Of a DNA stretch of 64,000 nucleotides, positions 11,283 to 58,931 are shown one piece after another. Origin of the DNA: Desulfocapsa sp. (lineage in GTDB: Bacteria > Desulfobacterota > Desulfobulbia > Desulfobulbales > Desulfocapsaceae); assembly GCA_013792135.1 (NCBI GenBank), contig VMSP01000058.1, positions 24,911-88,910 of the forward strand, given 5' to 3'. The notes below the pieces were generated by a model. It had not been told where the DNA came from, made no database searches, and worked only from the letters and a program-made list of their open reading frames with translations. Made by a program: the position numbers and the translations under genes. The number at the start of each line of letters is the position of its first letter. The stretch's first letter is position 1.

Positions 11283-11380
11283 TGGCGGAAGTGCATGGGA
11301 ATCGAACCCACCTGCCAGGCTATTAACCCGACACACCGGATTTGAAGTCCGGGAGGGCCACCAGTACCCTGCCCACTTCC
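11283..11380 (-). tRNA. selC: tRNA-Sec (anticodon UCA)
   Basis: 98 nt, GGAAGTG/CACTTCC acceptor, GGACTTCAAATCC anticodon arm, long variable arm, GGTTCGATTCC, CCA end. Confidence 0.92.
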
Positions 11381-46977: not shown

Positions 46978-48108
46978 TTATATTTTCTGGGGTTCCCTAG
47001 ATGCTGTAATGAATTTCCCTAATATTATCATAAAAACAGTTGCAGCTAGTAGAATACTTGTAAAATTAATTGCGCCGAGTAAAGCATTTGTAAAATACAC
47101 TTTATAAACCATTGATCCCAAAACTTGGGTTCCAACAAACCCTCAGACAATCCCCCATTGTGCAGGAGAAAAATCAGAAGACAGAAAGTTCTTTTGTAAA
47201 TATTCTCTCAATAAGACAACTGAAAAGATGAAGCAAGTTGTTGCAGCTAGATATGAAAACACAAGAACTAAAAATGAAATTGTATTTGTGCTAAAAGCAT
47301 AAGTCTTACCAGCATATCCTAGTAATTTATAGAAACTAAATCCCAAGAGACACATTGGTGGTACTGTTAAAAAAAATGCTGGTAATAAATTTACACCAGG
47401 CATTACTTTCGATTTGATTTGTTGATAAACAAGTATTGTTACTTTTATGGCAAACACAACAATTCCAACCAACAAGGTGATTGTTGTCATAAATGCTGCT
47501 GATGATGATATTAAATTACTATTAGATGAACTTACAATACTTGAACCAAGTAGTGAAACCGCACCAAACGCTAACACATCAAGCAACCAACCAAAATTTA
47601 GTTTTCCATATTCAGAAAAATCTGTAGAAATAACCTTAGCAACTTTTATTTCAAATGATAGCAACATAAACCACAAACAGTTAAATATAATAAATGCTGG
47701 CAACATTAAGCTCTGCATATTTGCTGTTATTTGCGGCACAAAAAAACTAACAGGACCAAATAAAACTACCATAGTCATTGGTAATGAAATTATTGGTGAA
47801 AATATTGCTGAACTAGCCAAAGGATTTTCTATTATTTTTTTGAAATCATTGGTTTTAAGTAACCATACGAAAAGTTCCTTTAAGAAAATTACAGTCAGAA
47901 TAAAATGAATGACTATAAATAATCCCATTACTGCTATTAAAAATATGGCTGTTGCGTACTCTAAGGGACTGCTTGAAAGTAATGATAATTTGGATAAGGC
48001 AATTTCTTCTTCACTTTTGAAAATATTTATTTTTAAAAAAATATATGGCATTAAAGCAACTCCAGCTGCTGCCAATGTTCCTTGAAATTTTAGTGGTGTA
48101 AATTTCAT
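46978..48108 (-). CDS. Putative selenocysteine-containing multi-TM permease (SLAC1/TehA-like organisation suspected); in-frame TGA at 47143-47145
   Basis: ORF track stops at TGA; the same frame continues 59+ aa to TAA as GFVGTQVLGSMVYKVYFTNALLGAINFTSILLAATVFMIILGKFITASREPQKI with further TM segment. Confidence 0.6.
47117..47129 (-). promoter_or_regulatory. SECIS-like hairpin of the permease gene
   Basis: CCCAA-GTT-TTGGG, loop begins 18 nt after TGA, loop starts with G. Confidence 0.5.
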
Positions 48109-48153
48109 AGATACCCTCTTCGCCTCCTTTTCCGTGTATTTATTGAATCGGTG

Positions 48154-48420
48154 TCAGATTGTTTCGGAGAGTATATTGTTCAGATAGTCCGCCATTTTTT
48201 CCTTGGATGTGGCTATATCCAAAGGAACCCATTGCTGGTTGATAAATATATTGGTTGAGCCTTTCAGAGAATAGGCCGTAGCTTCGGGTGAATCGGTAGT
48301 ATAAATGTGCAGGTCAAGTTGATCTTTGAACCTTTCTTGCATAGCGCTGGCCACACCTGTGGCCTTCTGACATGTTACTCAAGCAGGGTTGCCGCTGTGA
48401 AACACAATCATCTCTATCAT
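48154..48420 (-). CDS. Putative thioredoxin-like selenoprotein with UxxC motif (in-frame TGA at 48379-48381)
   Basis: GGAGG RBS, ATG; MIEMIVFHSGNPA-U-VTCQKATGVASAMQERFKDQLDLHIYTTDSPEATAYSLKGSTNIFINQQWVPLDIATSKEKMADYLNNILSETI*. Confidence 0.78.
48349..48364 (-). promoter_or_regulatory. SECIS-like hairpin of the UxxC thioredoxin-like gene
   Basis: GGCCAC-AGGT-GTGGCC, perfect 6-bp stem, loop begins 20 nt after TGA. Confidence 0.75.
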
Positions 48421-48483
48421 GATTTCCTCCATTTTTATTGCTGCATAGGTTTTGGAATTTTTTTCTGACTCTTGTCATTTGGC

Positions 48484-48765
48484 TTATGTCTCTTCTGGGC
48501 ATGGCAATCCTAAGTGACGGCAGATGCACGCCTCTACCGCATCCAGTGACACATCCGCCCCTTCGACCACAATTTCATCCTCCACCATGACCGCCGGGGC
48601 CACAGGCAAGTCCAGCTCAAACCAGGCATCGGTCTGGTACTCGGCTCTGGGTTTTGAAATGGTTTCAATGGTAATACCGTATTTTGCGCCCAGCCTGGGC
48701 ATCATTTCCAGAAAATGGCCTCAGGCCTTACCGTTGGGTTCATTCAGAAAAAACCTCATCAACAT
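48484..48765 (-). CDS. Putative small thioredoxin-fold selenoprotein (in-frame TGA at 48721-48723)
   Basis: GAGGAG RBS; MLMRFFLNEPNGKA-U-GHFLEMMPRLGAKYGITIETISKPRAEYQTDAWFELDLPVAPAVMVEDEIVVEGADVSLDAVEACICRHLGLPCPEET*. Confidence 0.72.
48688..48700 (-). promoter_or_regulatory. SECIS-like hairpin
   Basis: GCCCA-GGC-TGGGC, loop begins 25 nt after TGA, G at loop positions 1-2. Confidence 0.6.
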
Positions 48766-48781
48766 AGTGCTCCTCATCTGA

Positions 48782-49231
48782 TTAAATTTTTTGTTCTCGG
48801 CGCAGCTTGGCAAGCAGGAATATCGCGCCACTGTGAGAGAATCCAAGATTATTCGAAAGATCTTCTGCTTTACTTTCAGGGTGCTGCTGGAGAAAGGTCC
48901 GCACCTCATCTTCCAGTTCTTCAAGCCAGTCCTCAAAAAGGATTAATAACTCAGGATCAGTGACAGATTGGAGTTGTCTGGAGCGAGCCACTTTATCCAC
49001 CAGGCTTTGACACATCTTTGTAGGGTCGACACCTTCGCCCATGCACTCCGCCAGTCAGAGATGTACGAGACTGGCAACCTTGTCGGCGCCAGCTTCACCA
49101 ATGAGATTGACGACAAAATTTAGACGAAGCTCTTCGTTTACCTGGGAGAAAAGTCCGCGGAGAACGACTCCCAACCTGTTCAAGGCTGCTTCTGGTCCCA
49201 TTCTGTCAATTATTTCTTGAATTTCATCCAT
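48782..49231 (-). CDS. Putative selenoprotein of unknown function (in-frame TGA at 49055-49057)
   Basis: MDEIQEIIDRMGPEAALNRLGVVLRGLFSQVNEELRLNFVVNLIGEAGADKVASLVHL-U-LAECMGEGVDPTKMCQSLVDKVARSRQLQ...LLAKLRREQKI*; two track ORFs are in the same frame. Confidence 0.7.
49023..49040 (-). promoter_or_regulatory. SECIS-like hairpin
   Basis: GGGCGA-AGGTG-TCG(A)CCC, 6 bp with one bulged A, loop begins 20 nt after TGA. Confidence 0.6.
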
Positions 49232-49255
49232 ACGAACAGGTACTCCCCCCACATG

Positions 49256-49573
49256 TTAAAAGGTTGTTCTTTCACTGAGTAATGCCGCGCCCAGTTCATC
49301 TAATCCTGCCAATATTATAAGAATCCGTTGATCTGTCATCTCGTAATATACGAAGGGACCGCTTCGCTCCACCTTCACCAGCAAGGCCCTTCTCAGTTCC
49401 TTGAGATGATGAGAAACAAGTGGTTGCGATAAACCGAGTTCTTCAACAATCCTGGAGACAGATTTTTTCACCTTGCTGACACATATCAGAATACGCAGTC
49501 GATTCTCATCAGCCAGGCATTTGGCAAGAAAGGCAAGACTGTGAATATTCAGGTTATCTGCGCGGTTATTCAT
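49256..49573 (-). CDS. ArsR-family HTH regulator
   Basis: LAKCLADENRLRILICVSKVKKSVSRIVEELGLSQPLVSHHLKELRRALLVKVERSGPFVYYEM. Confidence 0.87.
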   Translation of the reverse strand: MNNRADNLNIHSLAFLAKCLADENRLRILICVSKVKKSVSRIVEELGLSQPLVSHHLKELRRALLVKVERSGPFVYYEMTDQRILIILAGLDELGAALLSERTTF

Positions 49574-49597: not shown

Positions 49598-49882
49598 TTA
49601 GTATGTAAATTTGCCAAAGATTTCTTCGATGGTCTTGTCATGAACCCCGTGTTCTTCGAGGACATCTTTTGCGTGTGTCAGAAATTGCTGTCGTTTCAGT
49701 TCGGCGCTGCTGTTTGTCAAGCCTTGTCGAGCATAACAAAGAAGTAGGGAAGGAACATCAGTCTCTGCCAAGTCTGCCGCTTCTTGTATTTGTCCCAAAA
49801 GATCGACAGGGATTTTTAACGTTAGCGGAGCGTAATCATTATCATTCGAAGTCATTTGACATTGGCATATGCTTTCTTTCAT
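49598..49882 (-). CDS. Small hypothetical protein upstream of arsR-like gene
   Basis: 94 aa, same strand, short gap. Confidence 0.5.
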   Translation of the reverse strand: MKESICQCQMTSNDNDYAPLTLKIPVDLLGQIQEAADLAETDVPSLLLCYARQGLTNSSAELKRQQFLTHAKDVLEEHGVHDKTIEEIFGKFTY

Positions 49883-50158
49883 GATTCGACCTCCTCACAG
49901 ATTGAAAGGATAATGGGTTCCCACCATTGAGACACCTATCCTTTAGTATATAATTATATATATAGACGTTTATATGTTGATGTCAAGAGAAGAAACTTTG
50001 GATTATTATTGAACTGCACGGGGGGATTCAAAATTGGAATTCCACCTTCGCCGGGAACAATAGATTCCAAAGGTGGAGCTGGTTTCAATTTTAAATATTC
50101 ATCAATTACTTTTCGGCTCGGGTCAATCCATATTCGTTTATTTTGCCATGGCTGAACA

Positions 50159-51505
50159 TCAGAAAAAATACCTCACCCGTAGTTCCACAAGATAATCATT
50201 CGGTTTTTCGCCATATTCACTGGCATCCTCACCCTGGATGATGTTGGCCTTGAGCCGCACTTCCATATTGGTAATCCCGGTATAGATCACTTCAGGAGAC
50301 AGGGAAAAACTGCTGTCCTGCAGGTTCATGATACAGGTGATTGCCGGGGTGAAATACAACAGATCAAAGGGTTCTTTCTGACTGATCCGAGCATACAGAT
50401 AGTCCCGCATCGGATTCATCCTGCCGACCCCGCTTTCACTCGCCACCGTTGCTTTGGCCAGCAGCATTTCATTTCCCGTACTCAGATAGGTATTGTAGGC
50501 GTGGTCAATGAAAGAAAAATAGCCTGCCATCTCCTTGGCTTCATACCCTGTATCGTCATGGTAATATTCAACAATAGTTGTGACATCATTCTCCGTCAAA
50601 TAACGGAGACCTAGCAAATAACTGAAGGCGTCATATTCTGTTACCGATATCTGCCCAAGACTATCAATGGCCTTTTTCTGATAATCATCAATCCTGGCGA
50701 CCTCGCCATGTACTTCAAAAGAGGGCGTTATATTGCGTGAAAAATCGGCGCCATACCTGCTGGTTTTACTGGCACCGCTCAGAACAATGAAATCAATATC
50801 CGTGTCGTAGAACAGAAGATAGACTTTTCCCGCGACATTGAGGTGATCAGCCCTGCCGAAATCATCATTGAACGAATCATAAACAGGAATAAGCACCGGC
50901 GTAAAGGAAAGCGTCTGCAGGGGCCCGGAAAAACTTCTGGTATAGTCGGCAGAGGCCACAACAATACCTTCAAGACTCAACTCCGGGTCATCAGGGTTTT
51001 TAGGCCGGTCAAGGAAGGCCACAGGATTCCAGGCATAGCCCTTGCCCCAGCGCAAGGTCTTCTTTCCCGCCTCCAAAACAAGAGAAGACGAAGGTTTAAG
51101 GGACAGATACCCTTCATACACATTTGCCTCATCAGACCATTCATCAAAGGCATATCCACCGTTAACATTTATTCTGGTGAATAAACGAGCCATCCCCTTT
51201 TCATAGCTGCCTTCCAGTTGCAGCTTAAAGGCATACGCATCGGCAAGGACGGCCTCATCATGATTGTAATGCTTGAGCCGGTACAAAGCCGCGCCTTTAT
51301 CGGCGCTGGAGATTTCCGGGCTAAATTCCGTATATCCTCCGAGATAAAAGGGCTGTTTTTCCGTCTCGGAGAGATCAAATGAATAGTCTTCAGCACTCCA
51401 GGCCGGGGCAGGAGCGAAGAGCAGGAACAAAGCACAGAGCCACCAGAAACAGTGTCGATCCTTCACCTTACTGGCCTTACTTGGCCGCTTCGCGCAAGGA
51501 ATCAA
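50159..51505 (-). CDS. Outer-membrane beta-barrel protein
   Basis: Signal peptide, alternating pattern, terminal aromatic ...LVELRVRYFF. Confidence 0.65.
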   Translation of the reverse strand: MIPCAKRPSKASKVKDRHCFWWLCALFLLFAPAPAWSAEDYSFDLSETEKQPFYLGGYTEFSPEISSADKGAALYRLKHYNHDEAVLADAYAFKLQLEGSYEKGMARLFTRINVNGGYAFDEWSDEANVYEGYLSLKPSSSLVLEAGKKTLRWGKGYAWNPVAFLDRPKNPDDPELSLEGIVVASADYTRSFSGPLQTLSFTPVLIPVYDSFNDDFGRADHLNVAGKVYLLFYDTDIDFIVLSGASKTSRYGADFSRNITPSFEVHGEVARIDDYQKKAIDSLGQISVTEYDAFSYLLGLRYLTENDVTTIVEYYHDDTGYEAKEMAGYFSFIDHAYNTYLSTGNEMLLAKATVASESGVGRMNPMRDYLYARISQKEPFDLLYFTPAITCIMNLQDSSFSLSPEVIYTGITNMEVRLKANIIQGEDASEYGEKPNDYLVELRVRYFF

Positions 51506-52235
51506 TGTTCGGCATGAATGTCATGGTAAACACCTCATCCTTGAATTCCCGCTGCTTGATCTTGGCCATGATCATCACAGATTTATACCCTTTATAGAGC
51601 GGACTGTCGGTTTCAATCACCGAGGGCCGAACGATGCCGCCGCCGAAGTCTTTCACCTCTTTGAAATAAAGGGTTTTGATAAGCATTAACCCCTCGGTCA
51701 GACATTCTATTTTGGTGGGTAACAGGGTTTTCGTATCCGCCCGCAACCTGACCCGATCATACGACACGGTCCTGGTCCTGGCCTTCAAGTGCAGGAGCAC
51801 CTCGCCTCCCTGCTCTTCTTTCTTTTCCACCGTGTATTCGGCGGCATAATCGAGCTGCATGATATCAGCATTATTAAACACCCCGCCAACTACCGACTGC
51901 AGACTGGTAATCCGCACCGGCTTGCCGACATTAGGGATATAGAGCCACATATTGTCACCCAGACGCAGGGTGCTGCGTCCTTTTTCACTGGCCGGCTCAA
52001 GAAAAAGAGAAGCAACCTTATCCGCGTCTTTTTTGACGGTATAGAGGATAAATTCCTTTTTCCGGCCGTCCGGTTCGATATTGATCAGCTTTCTATAGGA
52101 CTCATAGGATTCGGGGTTCATGTTCCGGTCAATCTGCTGCAGGAGTTGGGTGTCTTCCTCAGCGGCAGAAACCGTTCCCGCATAAACCGGGGCCAAAAAG
52201 AAAACGGCCAGTAAAACTGTCAGGTATTTTTTCAT
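51477..52235 (-). CDS. Outer-membrane lipoprotein-sorting (LolA-like) protein
   Basis: Signal peptide; MWLYIPNVGKPVRITSLQSVVGGVFNNADIM. Confidence 0.75.
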   Translation of the reverse strand: MKKYLTVLLAVFFLAPVYAGTVSAAEEDTQLLQQIDRNMNPESYESYRKLINIEPDGRKKEFILYTVKKDADKVASLFLEPASEKGRSTLRLGDNMWLYIPNVGKPVRITSLQSVVGGVFNNADIMQLDYAAEYTVEKKEEQGGEVLLHLKARTRTVSYDRVRLRADTKTLLPTKIECLTEGLMLIKTLYFKEVKDFGGGIVRPSVIETDSPLYKGYKSVMIMAKIKQREFKDEVFTMTFMPNIDSLREAAK

Positions 52236-52248
52236 TGCAATTTCCCCT

Positions 52249-53487
52249 CTACACATGTCTGAGCGCTTGAATCGGATCCATGCGCGATGCTTTGACCGCC
52301 GGATAAAGACTGGCGATAACCGAGACCACAATAACCGTTATGGAGATGAAAAGCAGGTCTTTCGGGTGGAGTTGCGCCACCAGAAGCAGGTCTTTCTGTT
52401 GACCAAAATCAAAGGTAAGGTGGGCTATATTGACAATTTTGACCAGCGCCATGGCCACGAGACCACCGATAATCGCCCCAAACACCCCGAGAAGAAACCC
52501 TTCAACGACAAACATCGACAAAATCTTCCCCGGCAGGGTGCCTATGGCGGCAATGGTGCCGATTTCCCGGATCCTCTCATACACCGCCATGATCATGACA
52601 TTGGTGATACTGATCAGCACAATCATGGTCAGCATCAGTTTGATGGAGAGGGTCATGAGATCGATCATTTTGGAAATATTAAAAAAGGGAGAGAGCTTTT
52701 CCCAGGTGTGAATCTCAAACAGGGGTTTGTTCTCTTTATTCATCTCACCGGCCACAATTCCTTCAAGCCGCGAGCTGAAGGAGTGCAGGGAATCAAAGTT
52801 TTTTAAGCGAATGGCAATCTCGCTGACCTCCGCCTCTTCCATGCGCAGCAGCTCCACCGCATCGTCAAAATGAAGGTAGCCATCCCTGCCGCCGGGACCG
52901 GTAATGCCATCCAGAATGCCGGCCACGACAAACTGCCGACCGTTGACCGATCCATCTTTATTGGTGGCGATGATGACCACAGTGTCGTCGACCTTCACCT
53001 TCATCCCTTTGCTCAACAGGGCCGGAACCAGGATCTCACCACGCTTGAGCGTTTTCCGGCCTTCGGTTATCCGGGAAGAGAGCAGCGGCACCGTGGCAAA
53101 CTCTTTCTCCGGGACCACCCCGTTCAATCTGACATTGCTGGTCTCGGTATAATTGCTGAACATGGCTCCGAACTTGATGCGCGGCGAAGAGGCCTCGATC
53201 TCCGGCTGCCGATCAAGGATCTCTTGCAGACGATGGACGGCCTTGGCCTTCATGTTCAGGGTCAGAGGCAGGTTATCGATGGAGGCCACATACCCCTTCC
53301 TGTGCACCTGCAGATGACCAAGCATGGAATCGGTAATCTGGCCGACCATCATGTTTTTAAACGATCCGGACACCGACATGAAGAGGAGGACAAACACCAC
53401 GCCAACGGTAATAAGCGAGGCGGTCAACAGGGTCCGCCGTTTATAGCGCAGGAGATTACGCAGGGCGATCTGCAGTATCTTAAGCAT
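52249..53487 (-). CDS. ABC transporter permease (FtsX/MacB/LolCE-like)
   Basis: N-terminal TM, periplasmic domain, three C-terminal TMs; ALRNLLRYKRRTLLTASLI. Confidence 0.92.
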   Translation of the reverse strand: MLKILQIALRNLLRYKRRTLLTASLITVGVVFVLLFMSVSGSFKNMMVGQITDSMLGHLQVHRKGYVASIDNLPLTLNMKAKAVHRLQEILDRQPEIEASSPRIKFGAMFSNYTETSNVRLNGVVPEKEFATVPLLSSRITEGRKTLKRGEILVPALLSKGMKVKVDDTVVIIATNKDGSVNGRQFVVAGILDGITGPGGRDGYLHFDDAVELLRMEEAEVSEIAIRLKNFDSLHSFSSRLEGIVAGEMNKENKPLFEIHTWEKLSPFFNISKMIDLMTLSIKLMLTMIVLISITNVMIMAVYERIREIGTIAAIGTLPGKILSMFVVEGFLLGVFGAIIGGLVAMALVKIVNIAHLTFDFGQQKDLLLVAQLHPKDLLFISITVIVVSVIASLYPAVKASRMDPIQALRHV

Positions 53488-58257: not shown

Positions 58258-58931
58258 ATAAACCTGTGCCTGCAAAAATGGACGAACGGATTTCCTCCCA
58301 ATGTTCACGGGCAAAGGTCATAAAGTCATCGATGGGCATCTTATCGATACCCGCGCGCCCTTGTTGGCCTTGACCCGTTCCCATGCCTTCAGCATGTTTG
58401 GACGGGAGAGAATCTGTTCCAGCAGGTGTTCATCGAGATCGGGCTTGACGGCAACGCGCCGGTCTTCTGCTCCCCCTGGCGGGTTCATCACAGTGGCCGA
58501 GCTTACCGGGCCTTTTCCCTTCTCTGAGTTCGGTCCTTCGTCCCGTGGAGTGGAACTACTATGGCCTCTGCTGACTCCTGCCCGATCATCTTCCATGTTG
58601 CCATGGAGGACGCTGTCTAGCGTGAACTGAACCGCTTGCCGGGCAGGTCTCCCCGGATAATAACGCGATCTTTCCCTACACTGCCGCGGCATTTACCATA
58701 TCTCCCAAACCCAGGGCTTTGTCATGTTGTGCTGACTTACCCGGAAACTTGGCCTTATATGCCATTTCTGTTCGTCGGCTCATAGTTTTGCACTCCGGCT
58801 TCCTTCAGACGAACTCTCGCGGGGTCGCCCTTGCCTTTGGCTAGTATTTATGGTTCTGTTATCACAACAGTACCGGGTTTACATACAGGGGACTTGCACC
58901 CCATTAGATCACGCCCGTGCCGGGCGTACAC
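58258..58931 (-). mobile_element. 5' portion of a group II intron with frameshifted reverse transcriptase/maturase fragment, truncated by IS3
   Basis: 5' end GTGTACGCCCGGCACGGGCGTGATCTAATGGGGTGCAAGTCCCC; RT fragment LLEQILSRPNMLKAWERVKANKG / GIDKMPIDDFMTFAREHWEEIRSSIFAGT in two frames. Confidence 0.65.

Follow-up and report, generated by a model that had tools for sequence, protein, structure and literature searches.

TsoA, TsoB, TsoC, TsoX and TsoY are listed among the known or predicted selenoproteins in a 2026 review (PMC13188914), where the set goes by the name Tso (three selenoprotein operon), and the Tso families are credited, as cited in that review, to Haft and Tolstoy (2025, mSystems 10:e0141724, doi 10.1128/msystems.01417-24). 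In NCBIfam the system is represented by models for TsoR, TsoA, TsoB and TsoC and for the neighbours TsoX and TsoY. The locus described here matches five of these models, with selenocysteine (Sec) at the named motifs. However, it has no TsoB, although this is among the three selenoproteins behind the operon's name, either at the locus or in the rest of the assembly, and it carries an extra small gene, p94, before tsoR. A second system, the Sec-assisted organometallic (SAO) operon of Haft and Gwadz (2023, as cited in PMC13188914), also consists mainly of selenoproteins and has membrane transport parts. It differs from ours in that no SAO family is matched by the locus proteins and the locus has no organometallic lyase.

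Two of the gene products fall within wider protein groups. TsoY matches SLAC1 over nearly its whole length, and a channel function in the manner of the SLAC1/TehA-type anion channels is predicted for it, but TsoY has a conserved Sec near its C-terminal helices, which is a Cys in the wider TsoY family. TsoR belongs to the superfamily of the ArsR/SmtB repressors, and the promoter holds an AT-rich palindrome as its candidate operator, but TsoR lacks the conserved Cys ligands.

We consider it very likely, at a probability of roughly 0.93, that we are dealing with a selenoprotein operon of the tso type, in which all four in-frame UGAs are recoded. The four-selenoprotein set itself is already known and is covered by curated NCBIfam families. 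A preliminary description of this DNA held that automated annotation would miss it, which is true only of pipelines that do not use the NCBIfam tso models, as such models exist for all five proteins. Our additions are a candidate operator, a tsoR-tsoA core, covariation inside the genes, a winged-helix-like end of TsoA and a VTT/TVP38 neighbour.

Gene content of the locus and its relatives

On the minus strand of the window, by which we mean the whole 64,000-nucleotide stretch of Desulfocapsa sp. DNA that was analysed, the predicted genes run in the order p94-tsoR-tsoA-tsoC-tsoX-tsoY, with tsoB missing. The first gene of the putative transcript, p94 (49598..49882), is conserved immediately 5' of tsoR in five loci; it has no NCBIfam or Pfam match, and its likeness to ribbon-helix-helix regulators was judged by eye only. 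The other five proteins all score above the cut-offs of their NCBIfam models. An ArsR/SmtB-type regulator is encoded by tsoR (49256..49573; NF045707, 157 bits against a cut-off of 115), a selenoprotein with an LULAxC motif and Sec59 by tsoA (48782..49231; NF045695, 224 bits against 170), and one with an NEPxGxxU motif and Sec15 by tsoC (48484..48765; NF045708, 145 bits against 45). The product of tsoX (48154..48420; NF045809, 140 bits against 52) is a thioredoxin-like selenoprotein (UxxC) with an HSGNPxU motif and Sec14, and that of tsoY (46978..48108; NF047643, 487 bits against 250) is a SLAC1-family membrane selenoprotein with Sec322. TsoY of Desulfobulbaceae bacterium UBA2213, a relative, is 92% identical in the best segment. 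The likeliest starts are ATG 49231 for TsoA, 48765 for TsoC, 48420 for TsoX and 48108 for TsoY. Strong ribosome binding sites had been proposed at 48420 and 48765, and sites of the GGAG/GAGG type are indeed present at both, as well as at the start of TsoY. The PADLOC defence models returned nothing meaningful.

The profile of TsoX resembles thioredoxin (E 9e-4), and a low-confidence AlphaFold model of TsoC (2 sequences, pLDDT 57), too weak to be used in fold searches, shows its strands and helices in a thioredoxin-like order; the PDB profile search gave nothing convincing for TsoC and no match for TsoY. TsoY scores just above the Pfam SLAC1 cut-off (29.8 bits against 27.9), over residues 3-361, close to its full length.

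The locus has no room for tsoB between the end of tsoA at 48782 and the start of tsoC at 48765. A TsoB encoded elsewhere in the genome was rejected: the best match scores 74 bits, where the cut-off is 805, in an assembly that is 99.99% complete. In the relatives that have it, TsoB joins in one protein a rhodanese carrying two Sec residues (two U in 26/26 relatives), a membrane domain of the DsbD-like kind and a thioredoxin domain with WCTPC. In the 46 TsoA loci for which 4.5 kb or more of downstream sequence is available, the commonest downstream set is B and C only (21 loci), followed by none of the genes (8), C only (5) and C, X and Y (3); X with Y, C with X, and X only occur in two loci each, and B, B with C and Y, and X with B and C in one each. 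TsoB is missing downstream in 22 of the 46, and the close relatives of our locus share the TsoB-less form. Within the clade of the locus, all of the same genus, the arrangement is R-A-C-X, in some cases with p94 and Y as well; another genome of that genus (L071) has the form R-A-B-C-C, with a TsoA from a different clade.

What recurs is tsoR, which lies no more than 800 bases 5' of tsoA in 64 of 70 loci, including loci without B, C, X or Y. The six exceptions comprise a contig end (L089, L092 and L144), overlapping genes (L141), a Sec-less relative (L146) and L067, which alone among them appears truly to be without tsoR. The near-obligate core of the system is thus tsoR-tsoA rather than A-B-C, and TsoB is dispensable.

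A membrane protein of the VTT/TVP38 type is encoded near 15 loci, mostly directly 3' of the operon. In one of the loci surveyed (L133:10729-11901) a VTT/TVP38 protein encoded 3' of the tso operon is fused to an arsenate-reductase-like domain, and a separate ORF resembling that domain lies near the tso locus L081. A gene directly 3' of a divergent tsoR-tsoA pair (L090:8121-8945) encodes a protein related to MbdU (NF045648), a metal-binding double selenoprotein, and MbdU-related genes were seen in five other loci.

Directly 5' of the tso operon in the window lies a cassette of porin-like (50159-51505), LolA-like (51477-52331) and ABC permease (52249-53487) genes. In five genomes of the same order (L099-L103) a Cys-type TsoY-family gene sits between the LolA-like and porin-like homologues; the cassette of our locus (50159-53487) has no TsoY-family gene between the two. 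We do not claim a functional tie between tso and the porin, LolA and ABC genes, which are not beside tso in the same-genus loci examined. The window also holds matches to group II intron D1-D4 (58533-58826, minus strand; Rfam RF01998 and RF02001).

The four UGA codons and the hairpins that follow them

Four minus-strand genes downstream of an ArsR gene, each with one in-frame TGA, had been read from this DNA as putative selenoprotein genes, and the frames, coordinates and positions are as claimed. Residues at the UGA columns were counted among full-length relatives, in alignments of loci fetched across the phylum. The UGA of tsoA (49055..49057, like the others on the minus strand) corresponds to U in 69/69 relatives, that of tsoC (48721..48723) in 52/52 and that of tsoX (48379..48381) in 14/14, and a Cys form was not seen among the full-length relatives of these three proteins. 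In the phylum-wide search, all 33 TsoA matches above the 170-bit cut-off have exactly one TGA. The second residue of each motif is kept as well: U and C of the TsoA UxxxC motif are both present in 69/69, and those of the TsoX UxxC motif are invariant in 14/14. The UGA of tsoY (47143..47145) falls in a column that reads QWGxVU in nine relatives and QWGLIC in six TsoY-family proteins whose genes have no UGA there. The pairing of Sec with Cys at a single column is the classical test for a selenoprotein. Relatives thus align through all four TGAs, with U or, for TsoY, Cys in the column, and none was found to terminate at them. The true stop of tsoX is also a UGA (48154-48156); homologues finish near it, and the sequence that follows is AT-rich and has no obvious hairpin.

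The genome appears equipped to decode UGA. The tRNA-Sec gene selC, placed at 11283-11380 by the preliminary description, was recovered there on the minus strand (11283..11380) by both ARAGORN and Rfam (RF01852), and selA, selB and selD, for which a check had been proposed, are located elsewhere in the assembly, which completes the selA/B/C/D set. The selD gene of this genome (G000:C18:13761-14702, L066) itself has an in-frame TGA, and its product is probably a selenoprotein too.

A hairpin with a G in its loop had been described 18-25 nt after every TGA. We find the loops at separations of 20 (tsoA), 25 (tsoC), 20 (tsoX) and 18 nt (tsoY), with a G within the first two loop positions. On the minus strand, the stems and loops are GGGCGA-AGGUG-UCGACCC with loop GG in tsoA (49023..49040), GCCCA-GGC-UGGGC in tsoC (48688..48700), GGCCAC-AGGU-GUGGCC in tsoX (48349..48364) and CCCAA-GUU-UUGGG in tsoY (47117..47129). 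Single-sequence folding of the window gave no significant signal (z from -1.0 to +0.9), and we dropped folding energy as evidence for SECIS elements, using tests of fixed geometry and of covariation instead. In the first of these, hairpins whose first two loop bases contain a G, 15-27 nt past the UGA, were compared across each family with control windows inside the same genes. The hairpins scored above the controls in all four families (Mann-Whitney p = 2e-32 for A, 1e-23 for C, 3e-8 for X and 1e-7 for Y, values inflated by the relatedness of the sequences), and the geometry is nearly fixed, the loop starting at +20 in 63/69 TsoA, at +25 in 51/52 TsoC, at +20 in 13/14 TsoX and at +17 or +18 in 10/11 TsoY.

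We regard the covariation of the stems, which supports the same conclusion, as the stronger argument. In TsoA, 34 of the 68 sequences have A-U at the pair +17/+30 and 29 have G-C. This change links the alternation of Gly and Asp at one codon (GGC/GAC) with a synonymous change in the third base of an Asp codon further on, and the loop GG is invariant (68/68). The five pairs of the TsoC stem are kept in 49-52 of 52 sequences, with some two-sided changes, and its loop GG is present in 51/52. One pair of the TsoX stem is C-G in five sequences and U-A in seven, covarying at two third codon positions, and all five pairs of the TsoY stem are kept in 10/10 relatives. In the Cys homologues of TsoY, the hairpin after the Cys codon is missing.

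The four TGAs might instead be true gene ends, or else nonsense mutations or assembly errors in a region that is decaying; every one of them does interrupt its frame under table 11, and the hairpin energies of the window taken alone are unexceptional. Such a reading is already contradicted at the level of the sequence, and we give it next to no chance of being right: the UGAs are kept in every relative of TsoA, TsoC and TsoX counted above, in independent assemblies from many genera and with both flanks conserved, the hairpins behind them covary, and a Cys is aligned with the UGA of tsoY. All four genes almost certainly encode selenoproteins, as first proposed.

TsoR, its candidate operator and the C-terminus of TsoA

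Read from the sequence, the candidate promoter consists of a -35 box, TTGACA (49981..49986), and a -10 box, TATATA (49957..49962), both on the minus strand and separated by a spacer of 18 nt; an alternative TATAAT (49953-49958, minus strand) overlaps the -10 box and would give a spacer of 22 nt. The candidate TsoR operator, ATATAAACGTCTATATATAT (49956..49975, minus strand), lies within the spacer and across the -10 box, and it matches ATATAAA-N6-TTTATAT with one mismatch. A site over the spacer and the -10 box is a classical position for a repressor. We derived this consensus here, and binding by TsoR is a candidate assignment. Within two mismatches, the motif occurs 5' of tsoR (or 5' of p94 in loci that have this gene) in 39/64 loci, against 0.4% of dinucleotide shuffles. 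In ten genomes searched as a whole, most of them picked for having the motif at their tso locus, exactly one perfect copy was found in eight, always 5' of tsoR. In a ninth genome (G251) there are two perfect copies, and one of these lies close to an ArsR-like gene and a tsoC-like ORF. The copies in the genome of our locus all have one mismatch and none is perfect. Copies with one mismatch are no commoner genome-wide than a control pattern, so the case for the site in the window comes from its position and its relatives.

No conserved Cys was found among 66 TsoR sequences. This argues against a classical thiol site for metalloids, which TsoR probably lacks.

The C-terminal third of TsoA is winged-helix-like in profile matches to the PDB (E 0.014), and a stand-alone relative of this part (L146) scores above cut-off for both HTH_24 and FeoC in Pfam. 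For the TsoA of our locus, Pfam gave no winged-helix similarity, and the likeness is weak in full-length proteins generally. AlphaFold models of TsoA (3 sequences, pLDDT 55) gave no confident fold and were too weak for fold searches. C-terminal domains of TsoA that stand alone, with the Sec part missing, occur next to tsoR-like genes in L145 and L146, the latter also with a VTT gene. A divergent second subfamily of TsoA-like proteins with a UGA (L075:7557-7997, L089, L090 and L092) shares 24-27% identity with the TsoA of the locus; the member in L075 has its own tsoR-like gene and is oriented divergently from the main operon.

Proposed role of the operon

We suggest that SelB recodes all four UGAs and that TsoR may repress the operon through the AT-rich palindrome of the promoter, releasing it upon meeting an inducer or a redox partner. 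TsoX (UxxC), TsoC (GxxU) and TsoA (UxxxC) could then act together as a redox relay of selenols and thiols on a small oxidised species of sulfur, selenium or a metalloid. TsoY, as a channel of the SLAC1/TehA-like kind with its conserved Sec/Cys, would carry that species, or the product made from it, through the inner membrane. Such a role fits the rhodanese, DsbD-like and WCTPC architecture of TsoB and the 15 VTT/TVP38 neighbours. We put forward this combination of relay and transport tentatively, as a proposal with somewhat less than an even chance of being correct as a whole.

TsoA might also be a selenium-based sensor or regulator acting with TsoR and not an enzyme, whose UxxxC motif reports a redox or chalcogen signal while the winged-helix part contacts DNA or TsoR, thereby switching the rest of the operon. 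The place of tsoR directly 5' of tsoA in 64 of 70 loci, even where B, C, X and Y are lacking, would suit a partnership of this kind, as would the missing Cys of TsoR and the winged-helix-like C-terminus. However, the putative recognition helix of TsoA, SHSGAIFLLAKL, is hydrophobic and has few residues of the kind that contact DNA, the winged-helix likeness is as weak as described above, and nearly all known selenoproteins are redox enzymes or carriers, and we think a sensory TsoA unlikely. A broader form of the idea, in which tsoR-tsoA would be a selenium-dependent transcription switch with a single-target operator, common across Desulfobacterota, and B, C, X and Y exchangeable effector modules, seems to us rather doubtful. 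That the operon serves strictly for resistance to arsenic or metalloids, with an ArsR protein that senses As or Sb and other proteins that detoxify it, is suggested by the family of the regulator, by the VTT-arsenate-reductase-like fusion in L133 and by the similar separate ORF near L081. Yet TsoR has no conserved Cys and arsenic genes are not recurrent neighbours apart from those two loci, which makes a dedicated resistance unit improbable.

Whether its proteins form a relay or not, the tso locus belongs to a rare class, that of operons made up mainly of selenoproteins. Comparison across its relatives provides several handles on the system: the tsoR-tsoA core, a dispensable TsoB, a single candidate operator per genome and a covarying RNA pairing inside the coding sequence.
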